A program made the translations under genes and the position numbers. A stretch of 64,000 nucleotides of DNA from Billgrantia pellis (lineage in GTDB: Bacteria; Pseudomonadota; Gammaproteobacteria; Pseudomonadales; Halomonadaceae): positions 1-64,000 of the forward strand of contig NZ_VTPY01000003.1 in assembly GCF_008297955.1 (NCBI RefSeq), written 5' to 3'. This document shows positions 26,821 through 33,098 of this stretch, piece after piece. Under the pieces are notes generated by a model. It did no database searches and was not told the DNA's origin. It saw only the letters and a program-made list of their open reading frames with translations. Within the stretch, counting starts at the first letter, position 1. Every line of letters starts with the position of its first letter.

Positions 26821-27627
26821 TCAGTAAAACAGACGCCGCAGGGCTTCGCCCGGCTCGGCCTCGCGCATGAAGGCCTCGCCGACCAGGAAGCCGTGCACGT
26901 CGTGCTCGCGCATGCGCAGCACATCGGCCTGGCTGTGGATGCCGGATTCGGTCACCACGGTGACGTCGGCGGGAATTCGCGGCAGCAGTTCCAGCGTGGT
27001 CTCCAGCCGAGTCTCGAAGGTGTGCAGGTTGCGGTTGTTGATACCCACCAGGCCGATGTCGAGCTTGAGCGCGCGCTCGAGTTCCAAGGCGTCATGCACC
27101 TCGACCAGCACGTCCATGCCCAGCGCGGTAGCCTGCTGATACAGGTCGGCCATGCGTGCATCATCCAGCGCGGCGACGATCAGCAGGATGCAGTCGGCAC
27201 CGATGGCATGGGCCTCGCTAACCTGATAGCCATGCACAATAAAATCCTTGCGGATCACCGGCAGGTCGCACGCCTCGCGGGCGGCGATAAGAAAATCCTC
27301 GTGGCCTTGGAAGAAGTCGACGTCGGTCAGCACCGAGAGGCAAGCGGCGCCTCCGGCTGCGTAGTTCTCGGCAATCTCGGCAGGGCGGAAATCCTCGCGA
27401 ATCACCCCCTTGGAGGGCGAGGCCTTCTTGATCTCGGCGATCACCGCCGGGTCGCCCTCGGCGATACGTCGGTCAAGGGCCGCGATGAAACCGCGCGGGG
27501 CGCTCTGGCGCTGAGCCAGTTCCAGCAGCTCGGCTTCGGACACGGCGCGGCTGCGCTCGGCGACTTCCTCGTCCTTGCGGGCCAGGATGCGGGTGAGAAT
27601 GGTCGGGGCGTCCTGGGTCGGGCTCAT
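26821..27627 (-). CDS. trpC: Indole-3-glycerol phosphate synthase
   Basis: TIM-barrel enzyme of 268 residues, a stand-alone TrpC without the TrpF domain of enterics. It closes the indole ring in tryptophan synthesis. Landmarks are the N-terminal helix [25 protein letters not shown] with catalytic Lys, [16 protein letters not shown] and VTESGIHS. It is the last gene of trpGDC. Confidence 0.96.
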
Positions 27628-27669: not shown

Positions 27670-28689
27670 TCAGGAAACCAGTACCCGGGTAAAATCGGCC
27701 AGTTCCTTCATTTTTTCCAGCGGCAGCTTGGAGGCCTGGGCGTCCTGGGCCATCATCACGCCTTCCTTCAGCGTGTCGGCGATCCCTGCGCAGTAGAGCG
27801 CACCACCGGCATTGAGGGCCACGATATCGGCCGCCAGGCCTTCACCCACCAGCGCTTCACGCACCAGGCGCAGGCTATCCTCGGCACTGACGACCTTGAG
27901 CGGTGCCAGCTCGTGCCGCTCGATGCCAAAGTCCTCCGGCGTGATGGTGTAGCAACGAATCTCGCCATCCTTGAGCTCGGCGACCCGGGTGGGCGCGGCC
28001 AGGGATATCTCATCCAGGCCATCTTCGGCATGCACCACCATGACGTGACGGCTGCCGAGCTGGCGCAGCACCTCGGCCATCAGCGGCACCAGCTCCACCG
28101 AATAAACGCCCAGCAGCTGATTGGGCGCCCCGGCCGGATTGGTCAGCGGGCCGAGGATGTTGAACAGGGTGCGAACGCCCATTTCACGGCGCGGCCCGAT
28201 GGCGTAGCGCATCGCCGGATGATGGTTGGGCGCGAACATGAAGCCGACCCCTACCTGCTCGATACAGCGCGCCACCTGTTCCGGCCTGAGGTCGAGCTGG
28301 ATGCCCGCCATGTCGAACAGATCGGCGCTACCCGAGGAGGACGAGACGCTACGGTTACCATGCTTGGCCACGTGCGCACCCGCCGCCGCGGCGACGAAAC
28401 TGGAGGCGGTGGAGACATTGAACAGGTTGGCGCCGTCGCCACCGGTGCCGACGATGTCCACCACGTTGTCGGCGACGACTTCGACCCGCCTCATCAGTTC
28501 GCGCATCACCTGGGCCGCGGCTCCGATCTCCTCGGCACTCTCTCCCTTCATGGCCAGACCGACCAGCAGGCCGCCGATCTGGGCGTCGCTGGCCTCGCCG
28601 GTCATGATCTGGTGCATCACCGAGTGGGTCTCGTCGAAGCTCAGATTCGCGCGGCGCATCACCGCGGCAATAGCGTCTCGCATCTGCAT
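27670..28689 (-). CDS. trpD: Anthranilate phosphoribosyltransferase
   Basis: Enzyme of 339 residues that transfers phosphoribose from PRPP to anthranilate. The glycine-rich PRPP loop VDIVGTGGDGANLFNVST is near residue 77, and KHGNRSVSSSSGSADL follows. It is separate from TrpG, as in pseudomonads, not fused as in E. coli. GAGGAG lies upstream of ATG 28689. It follows trpG by 26 bases and precedes trpC by 42. Confidence 0.96.
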   Translation of the reverse strand: MQMRDAIAAVMRRANLSFDETHSVMHQIMTGEASDAQIGGLLVGLAMKGESAEEIGAAAQVMRELMRRVEVVADNVVDIVGTGGDGANLFNVSTASSFVAAAAGAHVAKHGNRSVSSSSGSADLFDMAGIQLDLRPEQVARCIEQVGVGFMFAPNHHPAMRYAIGPRREMGVRTLFNILGPLTNPAGAPNQLLGVYSVELVPLMAEVLRQLGSRHVMVVHAEDGLDEISLAAPTRVAELKDGEIRCYTITPEDFGIERHELAPLKVVSAEDSLRLVREALVGEGLAADIVALNAGGALYCAGIADTLKEGVMMAQDAQASKLPLEKMKELADFTRVLVS

Positions 28690-28715: not shown

Positions 28716-29300
28716 TCAGCGGCGCTGCAGGAAATTGGCCAGTAGCTCATGCCCTTGACGGGTCAGGATCGACTCCGGGTGGAACTGCACCCCTTCGATG
28801 TCCAACTCGCGGTGGCGCAGCCCCATGACCAGACCGGGGGTCACATCGTCATCATCGGTCCAGGCGGTGATCTCGAGGCAGGCGGGTAGGGTCTCGGCTT
28901 CGACCACCAGCGAATGGTAGCGGGTCACCTCGAGCGGATCCTCGAGCCCGGCGAATACCCCCTGGCCGCGATGGCGGACGCGCGAGGTCTTGCCATGCAT
29001 CACTTGAGGGGCTCGTATCACGCGTCCGCCGAAGACCTGACCGATCGCCTGATGCCCCAGGCAAATCCCCAGGATCGGCAGCCGACCGGCGAAGTGGCGG
29101 ATCGCCGCCAGCGAGATACCTGCCTCGTTGGGAGTACAAGGGCCCGGGGATATGACCAGATGACTCGGCGCCAAGACTTCGATCTTCTCCAGAGTGATGG
29201 CATCGTTGCGGAAGGTCGCCACGTCGGCTCCCAGTTCGCCCAGGTACTGCACCACGTTGAAGGTGAAGCTGTCGTAATTGTCGATCATCAGCACGGACAT
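28716..29300 (-). CDS. trpG: Anthranilate synthase glutamine amidotransferase
   Basis: Class I amidotransferase of 194 residues that supplies ammonia to TrpE. The catalytic Cys is in [11 protein letters not shown] (near residue 80) and the His-Glu pair in [10 protein letters not shown] near the end. No second amidotransferase is next to pabB, so this protein probably also serves PabB in folate synthesis, as amphibolic TrpG/PabA does elsewhere. It is preceded by a leader peptide with Trp-Trp and an attenuator. Confidence 0.95.
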
Positions 29301-29379
29301 GACGTTAGGTCCCGTTCCACAAGCTTTCTTGGCAATGTTTCATGCGTCTCGGCCAGCCGTGCGGGTCTCCTTCGGGCAC

Positions 29380-29402
29380 AAAAAAGCCGCCCAGACGGCG
29401 GC
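29380..29402 (-). terminator. trp attenuator (terminator hairpin)
   Basis: Reading leftward, GCCGCC (29402-29397), a 5-base loop and GGCGGC (29391-29386) are followed by six T residues (29385-29380). This is an intrinsic terminator 80 bases before trpG. An upstream GGCGGCA segment (29429-29423) can pair with the first arm plus one base (29403-29397), which gives the mutually exclusive antiterminator needed for attenuation. Confidence 0.8.
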
Positions 29403-29435
29403 ATCTTCTTCACTCGTCGGCGTGCCGCCCCTCGC

Positions 29436-29486
29436 TCAGGAGCGCCACCACTGGATCGAGCATGACAAAGAGACGAAAATATTCAT
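29436..29486 (-). CDS. trpL: trp operon leader peptide (Trp-Trp)
   Basis: A 16-residue open frame, MNIFVSLSCSIQWWRS, has two adjacent Trp codons two codons before its last residue. It sits 34 bases before the attenuator hairpin of trpGDC. In trp attenuation, stalling at Trp codons when charged tRNA-Trp is scarce favours the antiterminator. No strong ribosome site precedes the ATG, and the predicted transcription start falls almost on it, so translation may be leaderless or the promoter assignment slightly off. Confidence 0.75.
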   Translation of the reverse strand: MNIFVSLSCSIQWWRS

Positions 29487-29493
29487 GCCGCTA

Positions 29494-29523
29494 ATAGTGC
29501 CGTCGCGCGCCCTGCGCTGTCAA
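29494..29523 (-). promoter_or_regulatory. Promoter of trpL-trpGDC
   Basis: A consensus TTGACA (29523-29518) is followed after 18 bases by CACTAT (29499-29494) on the minus strand. It directly precedes the leader peptide. The divergent binding-protein gene starts about 130 bases away. Confidence 0.6.
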
Positions 29524-29652
29524 CGCATGTTCGCGCGGAAGCCCCATGCCGGCCCTCTCATGACCGAAACGGTGCGCCGCCGCGGGTGGCTGGTCAGGCC
29601 AACGCTCAACCTCTATCATCGGGCATGCGCAACCGCGAAAAGGAGATTGACG

Positions 29653-30609
29653 ATGCGCTCGACCCGCCGTGCCCATTGCTGGCTGGCATTCCCCCTCGCT
29701 GCCATGGTTGGCGGGGTCCCGGCTGCCTCAGCCACACCCAAGGTGGTCGCCACCTTCTCGGTACTGGGTGACTTGGTCAATCAGGTCGGCGGTAGCGACA
29801 TCGAACTGGTGGTACTGACCCCCACCGGCGCCGAGGTGCACGAGTGGGAGCTGACCCCGAACAACTTCATCGCTCTGGAAGATGCCGACCTGGTCTTCTA
29901 CAACGGCTATCAGCTCGAGCAATGGATGCGTCAGGTGTATGCCACCGTGGGCAACCGAGCACCTCTGATCGCCGTGGCGGAAAAATCCGAATACCAGACG
30001 CGCCCGATCATCACCGGAGAGTACACGGGCGACCCCGACCCGCACCTATGGATGGATCCGCGTGCTACGGCCGCTTTCCTCGAGGTGATCGCCGATACGC
30101 TGGCCGAGATCCATCCCGACGCCGCCGATGACTACCGGGCACGCGCCGAAGCGGCCAGCGAGACTCTTGCCTCGCTGCACGAAGAAATCGGCGAGCTGCT
30201 GGCCGGCGTTCCTGAAGAGCAACGGCTGCTGATCACGACCGAAGCGGCCTTCGGCTACTTTGCTGACACCTATGACTTTCGCCATGACGGGGTATGGGGC
30301 AACAATGCCGAGACCGAGGGCTCACCCCAGCAGATCATGCGCATCGTCGACCTCATCGAAGAGCACCGTCCACGAGCCCTGTTCTGGGAAAGCACGCTCA
30401 CGGATCGCTACGTGAGTAGCATTGCCGCCGACACCGGCCTCGCTGTGGCTGGCCCTCTCTATGTCGATTCACTGAGCGAACCCGATGGAGACGCGTCCAA
30501 CTACGTCGCATTGATGCGTCACAATGCCCTGCTGATTCGCAACGCCCTGCTTGGCGAAGAAAAGAACGGCGAATCAACGTCCGGCGAAAAGCAGAACGAG
30601 GAACAATAA
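29653..30609 (+). CDS. Orphan metal ABC transporter substrate-binding protein (Mn type)
   Basis: TroA/PsaA-family periplasmic protein of 318 residues with a signal peptide (cleavage near PAASA). Metal ligands can be assigned by position as His63 (EVHEWEL), His131 (DPHLWMD), Glu197 (TTEAAFGYF) and Asp272 (YVDSLS). The His-His-Glu-Asp set is that of manganese or iron binders such as PsaA, not the three-His zinc set. GGAG lies upstream of the ATG. No permease or ATPase gene is adjacent. The C-terminus ends in a charged, low-complexity tail (GEEKNGESTSGEKQNEEQ). Confidence 0.85.
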   Translation: MRSTRRAHCWLAFPLAAMVGGVPAASATPKVVATFSVLGDLVNQVGGSDIELVVLTPTGAEVHEWELTPNNFIALEDADLVFYNGYQLEQWMRQVYATVGNRAPLIAVAEKSEYQTRPIITGEYTGDPDPHLWMDPRATAAFLEVIADTLAEIHPDAADDYRARAEAASETLASLHEEIGELLAGVPEEQRLLITTEAAFGYFADTYDFRHDGVWGNNAETEGSPQQIMRIVDLIEEHRPRALFWESTLTDRYVSSIAADTGLAVAGPLYVDSLSEPDGDASNYVALMRHNALLIRNALLGEEKNGESTSGEKQNEEQ

Positions 30610-30687: not shown

Positions 30688-32184
30688 CTAGAGGTTATCG
30701 AGCCCTTTCTCGGCCATGGCCACGGCGCGAAAGATAGCGCGCCCTTTGTTGAGCGTCTCCTGCCATTCGAGCTCGGGCACGGAGTCGGCGACCACTCCCG
30801 CCCCGGCCTGAACATGCAATTCTCCGTCTTTGATCACCGCGGTGCGAATGGCAATGGCGGTATCCATGTTGCCGTGCCAGGAAAGATAGCCCACCGCACC
30901 GGAGTATATGCCGCGCTTGACCGGCTCCAGTTCGTCGATGATTTCCATCGCTCGGATCTTGGGCGCCCCCGACAGCGTGCCCGCCGGAAAGGTAGCCCGC
31001 AGCACGTCCATGGCGGAAAGCCCCGGCTTTAGCCTTCCGGTAACGTTGGACACGATATGCATCACATGGGAATAGCGCTCCACAGCCATCTGGTCGGTGA
31101 CCTTCACCGAGCCGGTCTCGCTGATTCGCCCCACGTCGTTGCGCCCCAAATCGATCAACATCAGGTGCTCGGCCACCTCCTTTGGATCGGCCAGCAGATC
31201 GGCCTCAAGTGCCATGTCCTCGGCTTCGGTCTTGCCTCGCACCCGGGTGCCGGCAATCGGCCGTACCGTGATTTCACCCTCCTCGAGCCGTGCGAGAATC
31301 TCTGGCGACGAGCCCACCACATGGTGATCGTCGAGGTTGAAGAAGAACATATAGGGCGAAGGATTGAGGCTGCGTAGCGCGCGATAAAGGTCGAGTGGCG
31401 AGGCCCGGTAAGGGATCGACATGCGCTGCGAAGGCACGCACTGCATCACGTCGCCGGCCAGTACGTACTGCTTGATGGTTTCCACCGCTGCCTTGAACCC
31501 CGCTTCGGTAAAACCCGAGGTGAAGTGCCCCTCCTCCACCGCGCTGCGGCCGGTGCCGGGGCTACCGGCCAGCACGCTGGCACTGCGCAGCCGCTTCTCC
31601 AGCCTCGCCAATCGATCGATGGCCGCCTCGTAGGCGTTCGCTGAAGCCGGGTCGGCATGCGTCCACAGCGTCAGACGTCCCGAAAGGTTGTCGAATACGA
31701 CCAGCTCGTCGCAGACCATCAGCAGGATATCGGGCACGTCCAAAGGATCGGGCTTCGCCGCGACGTGCGAGCCGCGCAGGCGCGGTTCGATGTAGCGGAT
31801 GGTGTCGTAACCGAAATAACCGACCAGACCGCCATCGAAGCGCGGCTGATCGTCCAACCGCGGCACGCGAAAATCCGCTTGGAAGCGCTCGATCCAGGCG
31901 AGTGGATCCTCGACCTCGTCGCGTGCCACGCACTCACCATGGCGGAAGTGGCTCACGCGGTGACCGCGAACTTCGATCCGCTCATGGCTGGGCAGCCCGA
32001 TGATCGAATATCGCCCCCACTTCTCGCCACCCTGTACCGACTCGAGCAGGAAGCTCCAAGGTTCATCGGCCAGCTTCAGGTAAGTGGACAGCGGCGTGTC
32101 GAGATCGGCCAGTACCTCACGGGTGACCGGGATACGGTTGTAGCCGGCGCGGGCCAGCTCATGGAAACGTTCGGGAGACATCAT
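30688..32184 (-). CDS. trpE: Anthranilate synthase component I
   Basis: Chorismate-utilising enzyme of 498 residues that makes anthranilate with TrpG. The N-terminal feedback-site region has [15 protein letters not shown], and the C-terminal half has [22 protein letters not shown] and [14 protein letters not shown] 32184 (tandem ATG) follows GAGGAA. It lies downstream of gph, is separated from trpGDC by an opposite-strand gene, and I find no Trp-codon leader in its own 250-base upstream region, so it may be regulated differently from trpGDC. Confidence 0.96.
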
Positions 32185-32390
32185 GCCCGATTCCTCGAAG
32201 GGTCGACGGTGACGTGATGGGTGCAATCGCTATGACGGAGTGAAAGCGAGCGTCACCATCGCCAACCGTCGGCTCCGGCAAACGGCATCGGCGAGCGGAC
32301 GGCAGTCGGGAAGCGACTGTCTCGGGAGAGGGCGGAGTCATCCAGCATCATGCGGCTGTCCATCGAAGCGTGTCCCGCGGAGATAGGCAA

Positions 32391-32406: not shown

Positions 32407-32432
32407 ATCGTCGATAGGAAGTGAAAATCACC

Positions 32433-33098
32433 CTAAACGAGTTCCGCCAGCGATTCAACCATGCCATCGGGCCGGCTATCGCGCACCGGCTCGCCATGGT
32501 TGTAACCGTAGGGAACCGCCAGGGTGCGAAAGCCTGCCGCCCGTCCCGCTTCGACGTCATGACGCGAGTCGCCAACCATCAGGCAAGCGGAGACCGGCTG
32601 CCCGAAACGCTCGGCCACGTGCCATAGCGGTGCCGGATCGGGCTTTTTCTGCGGCAAGCTATCGCCGCCCAGGCACAGCGCGAAATGGTCATCGAGGCCG
32701 AACGCCGACAGGATCGGCTGGATCAGGGCGAACGGCTTGTTGGTGACCACGGCAAGGATCCGACCTTCTTCGCGCAAGGCATCGAGGGCTTCGCGCACGC
32801 CGGGATAAAGCCGGGTGCGAGCGGTAGGATCGCAGCCGTAGTGCTGCAGGAATCGCGCGTGGCCAAGCTCCAGCCGCTCCAACGATGGCGGCGTCCCCAT
32901 GGCATCAGCTAGCGCGCGCTCGACCAGCTTGCGCGAGCCATTGCCCACCCAGTCTCTCACCTTGGCCTCGCCCGCGGGTGGCAGTTCGAAGTCAGCCAGC
33001 ACGGCGTCCACTGCCGCCGAGAGGTCGGGCACGGAATCGACAAGCGTGCCGTCCAGGTCGAAACAGATCAGGCGAATGTCGGCCAGCATCGGGTGCAT
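32433..33098 (-). CDS. gph: Phosphoglycolate phosphatase
   Basis: HAD-superfamily phosphatase of 221 residues. The nucleophile motif FDLDGTLVDS is near residue 13, the Lys motif is in PQKKPDPAP, and the acidic motif is MVGDSRHDVEAG. It removes phosphate from 2-phosphoglycolate formed by DNA repair or oxygenase side reactions. ATG 33098 has GAGG upstream. It precedes trpE on the same strand, a linkage common in pseudomonads and relatives. Confidence 0.92.
   Translation of the reverse strand: MHPMLADIRLICFDLDGTLVDSVPDLSAAVDAVLADFELPPAGEAKVRDWVGNGSRKLVERALADAMGTPPSLERLELGHARFLQHYGCDPTARTRLYPGVREALDALREEGRILAVVTNKPFALIQPILSAFGLDDHFALCLGGDSLPQKKPDPAPLWHVAERFGQPVSACLMVGDSRHDVEAGRAAGFRTLAVPYGYNHGEPVRDSRPDGMVESLAELV

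Follow-up and report, generated by a model that had tools for sequence, protein, structure and literature searches.

The window analysed here, a stretch of 64,000 nucleotides of Billgrantia pellis DNA, carries its trp genes on the minus strand in two separate places:

26821..27627, minus strand: trpC (NF001373, 398 bits)
27670..28689, minus strand: trpD (TIGR01245, 417 bits)
28716..29300, minus strand: trpG (TIGR00566 trpG_papA, 285 bits, over the cut-off)
30688..32184, minus strand: trpE (TIGR00564, 567 bits)

The trpE gene is located approximately 1390 nt upstream of trpG and is separated from it by a gene on the plus strand, the product of which resembles metal-binding components of ABC transporters at scores below the curated cut-offs. 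The best named match to trpG in the collection compared is that of Billgrantia kenyensis, which is 91 % identical.

A complete set of attenuator parts can be read directly on the minus strand before trpG, from 29486 to 29380, and a predicted promoter lies immediately upstream:

29518..29523, minus strand: -35 box TTGACA of the predicted trpGDC promoter, 37 nt before the leader ATG
29493..29499, minus strand: -10 region CACTAT/ACTATT, with +1 predicted from the spacing at 29486-29487, that is, at the leader ATG
29436..29486, minus strand: leader peptide frame MNIFVSLSCSIQWWRS plus stop, 16 codons, ATG at 29486 and TGA at 29438-29436
29445..29450, minus strand: TGGTGG, the pair of Trp control codons, forming part of strand 1, the 5' arm of the leader hairpin
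29423..29431, minus strand: strand 2, GGGGCGGCA, the antiterminator 5' arm, containing GGCGGCA at 29429-29423
29397..29403, minus strand: strand 3, TGCCGCC, both the antiterminator 3' arm and the terminator 5' arm
29380..29402, minus strand: intrinsic terminator GCCGCC-GTCTG-GGCGGC-T6 (strands 3:4), from a terminator scan and folding

The leader peptide ends in Gln-Trp-Trp-Arg-Ser (WWRS), and the terminator consists of the arms GCCGCC (29402-29397) and GGCGGC (29391-29386) followed by T6 (29385-29380). A sequence-only reading of this DNA had listed the 16-codon frame with its adjacent Trp codons, the terminator with six T residues and the GGCGGCA arm, and all of these are present as described, on the minus strand, which that reading did not name. 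Scanning positions 29000-29900 for terminators returned two sites, where shuffled sequence would be expected to give 0.6; the two are one and the same hairpin before trpG, read on either strand, with the T6 run on the minus strand. A search of Rfam with the trpG upstream region gave only sub-threshold matches, with E-values of 3.9 and 4.3.

Occurrence and promoter spacing of the trpG leader

We sought trpG in 201 genomes of the family, the window's own included, and found it in 200. The upstream DNA was examined in 120 genomes, made up of the 30 best matches, 60 chosen by hand and 30 added for missing genera, using a scan that ignores the promoter and requires a frame of 10-26 codons that starts with ATG and contains Trp, and an intrinsic terminator starting no more than 70 nt downstream. 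A leader with its terminator precedes trpG in 63 of these 120 Halomonadaceae genomes, representing 14 genera, although the genomes are related and such counts are not independent events. Since the same set of parts recurs before the same gene, its presence in the window is beyond chance. Loss of the adjacent Trp codons or of the paired arms in close relatives, which the sequence-only reading had held to speak against attenuation, is found in part: the leader is kept in these 63 genomes, the Trp run is a single codon in six of the 63, and no leader was detected in the other 57. The leaders with one Trp codon (L128, L130, L133, L134, L157 and L162) end in sequences such as QWRLYD and SWRLH, with Tyr following in some; these might respond through a single codon, or to a different amino acid. 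The codon after the Trp run is CGC in 57 of the 63.

The layout of the operon predicts the presence of the leader. Where trpE ends 175 nt or less before trpG no trpG leader was found (0 of 38 genomes), whereas 63 of the 82 other genomes have one. The 57 genomes lacking a detected leader are accordingly these 38 and a further 19. Genera g3 and g11 account for 14 of the 19, and two more, G009 and G016, have a WW leader with TTGAC at 36 nt and yet failed the terminator rule. Of 11 named relatives taken from a different collection (L009-L019), Billgrantia kenyensis, Salinicola salarius and Salinicola avicenniae have a WW leader with the same promoter spacing, and Modicisalibacter tunisiensis has a version with one Trp codon; the remaining seven, two Vreelandella species included, have no WW frame starting with ATG, GTG or TTG within 450 nt of trpG. 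In a further 69 named loci (L020-L088), some WW frame lies within 450 nt of trpG in five (L031, L032, L057, L065 and L084).

The position of the promoter is constant among the 63 leaders. In every one a TTGAC starts 35-37 nt before the in-frame leader ATG (35 nt in 15, 36 nt in 34 and 37 nt in 14), whereas in E. coli TTGACA lies 62 nt before trpL. With the usual sigma-70 spacing, a TTGAC at this distance places +1 on the ATG itself, and we therefore predict that transcription starts there. Pairing of the anti-Shine-Dalgarno sequence with the stretch before the leader ATG is at the level of shuffled sequence, with a median of -1.7 kcal/mol against -1.9 kcal/mol in shuffles, and values of -4.4 kcal/mol or better in six of the 63 leaders, close to the shuffled rate (26 of 315). 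The trpE start by comparison pairs at -5.9 kcal/mol (-4.4 kcal/mol or better in 113 of 120 genomes), and the trpG start at -4.4 kcal/mol (that or better in 62 of 120). This absence of a Shine-Dalgarno sequence before the leader AUG is as in a leaderless leader mRNA of the Sinorhizobium meliloti trpL type. Together, the spacing and the Shine-Dalgarno results suggest that the trpG leader is probably leaderless throughout these 14 genera, with the 5' end being predicted from promoter spacing. The suspicion of leaderless translation, raised earlier for the window from its predicted transcription start, is thereby strongly supported, at the level of predicted 5' ends, by the spacing in all 63 leaders. 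The same attenuator could instead be transcribed from a start further upstream and carry a short untranslated region that is read without a Shine-Dalgarno sequence, and the poor -10 box (CACTAT in the window) means that the actual start may differ from the forecast one; nevertheless, with TTGAC 35-37 nt from the ATG in all 63 leaders, +1 would fall on the ATG, and pairing is no better than in shuffles, so that we consider an untranslated region improbable.

A wider search for the pattern of a leaderless WW leader matched 20 of 369 genomes at the level of the class and 12 of 145 at the level of the order, although a reversed control pattern also matched some. Besides the window, two of the matches were inspected, in G003 and G607, and both look like Trp leaders. 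The G003 locus (L353) has what appears to be an old WWW leader, a terminator and the start of trpG, followed, where the remainder of trpG would be expected, by a frame that by eye resembles a tyrosine integrase; the trpG of this genome is located elsewhere, behind another leader with one Trp codon (L162), and perhaps a mobile element has inserted at trpG. The G607 locus (L358) belongs to another family of the order. Its WW leader frame, with a TTGACA 37 nt ahead of the ATG, precedes a frame resembling, also by eye, anthranilate synthase component I. Judging from this locus, leaderless Trp leaders may reach beyond the Halomonadaceae.

Folding and proposed mode of action of the trpG leader

When the RNA is folded before strand 4 has been made, strands 2 and 3 stay paired, at -13.9 kcal/mol, if the ribosome sits on the first Trp codon, whereas only -4.9 kcal/mol is left if it sits at the stop codon; the terminator alone is worth -12.5 kcal/mol. 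The E. coli trp leader, treated in the same way as a control, gives -15.6, -4.4 and -13.4 kcal/mol respectively. In 51 of the 63 leaders the pairing of strands 2 and 3 is stronger than in 95 % of mononucleotide shuffles, and in the other 12 it does not exceed the shuffles. Folding of the full RNA at equilibrium proved uninformative as a test of the switch: the terminator has a probability above 0.5 in 61 of 63 leaders stalled on the first Trp codon and in 63 of 63 with the ribosome at the stop, and the two ribosome states are separated neither in the Halomonadaceae leaders nor in the E. coli control. Since the terminator wins at equilibrium in every state, in E. coli too, the argument for a switch rests on the order of events during transcription. 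Compensatory changes lend it little support because the core of the terminator stem is nearly invariant among the 63 relatives.

The leader shares with the E. coli trpL type a short frame that contains neighbouring Trp codons and precedes a trp gene, an intrinsic terminator between that frame and the gene, and an antiterminator (2:3) that is favoured, by the partial-RNA energies, when the ribosome is stalled on the Trp codons. We believe it very probable that trpGDC is controlled by ribosome-mediated attenuation of this type, acting on a leader mRNA that has no 5' untranslated region. The proposal of attenuation made from the sequence alone is supported by the anatomy, the E. coli folding control and the relatives. 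Transcription would start at the A of the leader AUG, or within one or two bases of it, and the ribosome would have to begin on an AUG at the very 5' end, with no Shine-Dalgarno sequence to guide it. Under a shortage of charged tRNA-Trp this ribosome would stall on UGG-UGG, strands 2 and 3 would pair and the polymerase would continue into trpGDC; when Trp is plentiful it would reach the stop codon and cover strand 2, the 3:4 form would arise and transcription would end at T6. Given the layout of trpE and trpG and the lack of a Shine-Dalgarno sequence, the leader would sense Trp only on RNA made from its own promoter.

The hairpin could also be a plain terminator or insulator beside a WW frame that is never translated, as might be read from the terminator being formed at equilibrium in every simulated state. 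That it would be preceded, relative after relative, by Trp codons in the same place and by a strand 2 able to pair with strand 3 makes this very improbable, as does the failure to find any leader in the 38 genomes in which trpE abuts trpG.

A different Trp-codon leader before trpE

The sequence-only reading placed the control on trpGDC and not on trpE, whose upstream region was said to show no such leader. It is the case that no WW frame with a terminator precedes trpE, but a conserved W-R-W-stop frame does, so that trpE has a different Trp-codon leader of its own and the placing of control on trpGDC only is not supported. The features of this region are:

32430..32458, minus strand: TTGAAT-17-TAGGGT, probably the promoter of trpE, located where gph ends (3' end); many relatives also have TTGAATCG upstream
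32253..32363, minus strand: second Trp-codon leader frame, before trpE, MDSRMMLDDSALSRDSRFPTAVRSPMPFAGADGWRW plus stop, with an inferred start codon
32253..32264, minus strand: TGG CGA TGG TGA, core of the trpE leader, conserved among relatives
32205..32214, minus strand: CGTCACCGTC, predicted to pair with GATGGTGACG of the leader core

The probable promoter falls within the final codons of gph and extends over the gph stop codon. In a sample of 120 genomes, each offering 250 nt or more of DNA upstream of trpE, the W-R-W codons are present in 93 and absent from 27, and TGGCGATGGTG is identical in 89 genomes of 12 genera. The Arg codon of the 93 is CGA in 90 and CGC in three, and one of the 93 frames continues past the usual stop. 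CGA accounts for 25 of the 280 Arg codons in eight genes of the window, and is a slowly read codon. In the 44 genomes with Arg before W-R-W, changes in the preceding codons number 999, 711 and 2010 at codon positions one, two and three (counted over 654 non-independent pairs), and this predominance of third-position changes indicates constraint on the leader peptide at the protein level; its commonest residues are L-M-R-D-V-K-R, followed by W-R-W. The other 48 genomes show no bias between positions (367, 352 and 347), and there only W-R-W seems to matter.

An intrinsic terminator of the E. coli type was rejected at trpE, since one follows the W-R-W frame in only 5 of 93 genomes, against 3.45 expected by shuffling, and the trpE upstream region has no match in Rfam up to an E-value of 5. 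Two other modes of action can be considered, each of which we regard as possible but rather unlikely. The first is translation attenuation, in which a ribosome held on the Trp codons would open a hairpin beside the trpE start. In the window's genome the pairing of CGTCACCGTC with GATGGTGACG is matched in strength by 1 of 200 shuffles, and in 20 of 46 genomes of the window's genus the core pairs with RNA upstream of trpE beyond 95 % of shuffles, the pairing stretch ending 22-25 nt before trpE in 17 of these 20 and, in the remaining three, to which the window belongs, 15 nt before it. In other genera, however, such pairing exceeds the shuffles in just 1 of 43 genomes, and outside the window's genus we reject pairing with downstream RNA as the general cause of the invariance of the core. 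In 10 of 13 genera the trpE Shine-Dalgarno sequence is on average less accessible behind the real upstream part than behind a shuffled one, but genome by genome this is so in only 49 of 92, a weak showing for sequestration by the upstream part.

The second, equally doubtful, is that the leader controls Rho-dependent termination, with a ribosome held beside the stop codon keeping Rho off the RNA. The lack of intrinsic terminators above chance is in its favour, as is the composition after the leader stop, where C exceeds G in several genera (in the window's genus, 41 % against 25 %), whereas genera g2, g10, g21 and g23 have no C excess there.

A short pattern of the trpE leader core matched 137 of 369 genomes of the class and was too common for use. 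The stricter KRWRW-stop pattern, which does not cover the G-W-R-W type of the window itself, matched 5 of 145 genomes at the level of the order and 7 of 369 at the level of the class, and among the 12 loci only that of G015, a member of the family, is at trpE.

Known Trp leaders and meaning for the family

The trpG leader resembles E. coli trpL in having WWR near the leader end, strands 1-4, a terminator with a T run and matching folding energies, and differs in the shorter distance from TTGACA to the leader ATG and in preceding trpGDC, where that of E. coli precedes trpE. Attenuation of trpE and trpGDC in Pseudomonas putida was reportedly the subject of a study by Olekhnovich and Gussin in 2001, and to judge by its title alone the likeness lies in attenuation acting on trpGDC. 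For Pseudomonas aeruginosa, the available part of a report on azithromycin-treated biofilms describes transcripts of the trpGDC leader with premature 3' ends, next to what may be an upstream frame, which starts with GTG and not, as in the window, with ATG; it mentions neither a response to Trp nor a leaderless start (PMC8297930). In Sinorhizobium meliloti the 5' end of the Trp attenuator RNA of trpL (rnTrpL/peTrpL) coincides with the leader ATG, as is predicted for the window, but according to the portion of the paper available trpL there precedes trpE(G), and the released RNA and peptide act in trans (PMC7298713). The trpL1 of Streptomyces lividans is likewise leaderless, a Trp leader that has hairpins and a stretch rich in U, although, as far as the accessible text goes, this is in an actinobacterium and before a monocistronic trpE (PMC8079986). 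No Halomonadaceae Trp leader was among the matches listed in a literature search covering titles and the openings of abstracts, with few subscription papers.

The trpG leader represents an established form of control at a new site, the unusual aspects being the predicted absence of an untranslated leader in all 63 cases and the presence of a second, terminator-free Trp-codon leader on trpE. We suggest only tentatively, as a reading somewhat less likely than not, that Halomonadaceae with split trp genes use two different Trp leaders, a leaderless attenuator that tunes trpG on transcripts from its own promoter only, and a terminator-free W-CGA-W-stop leader that tunes trpE and depends on CGA. 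If this is true, the two subunits of anthranilate synthase would be tuned by two different Trp-reading leaders, and RNA reading through from trpE would be terminated at the trpG leader whatever the level of Trp. The conserved W-R-W-stop leader of trpE offers a specific and cheap experimental target. For trpG, leaderless Trp leaders appear to be the rule in 14 genera of one gammaproteobacterial family, and in these relatives of E. coli ribosome and polymerase would thus have to be coupled on a message that begins with its AUG.
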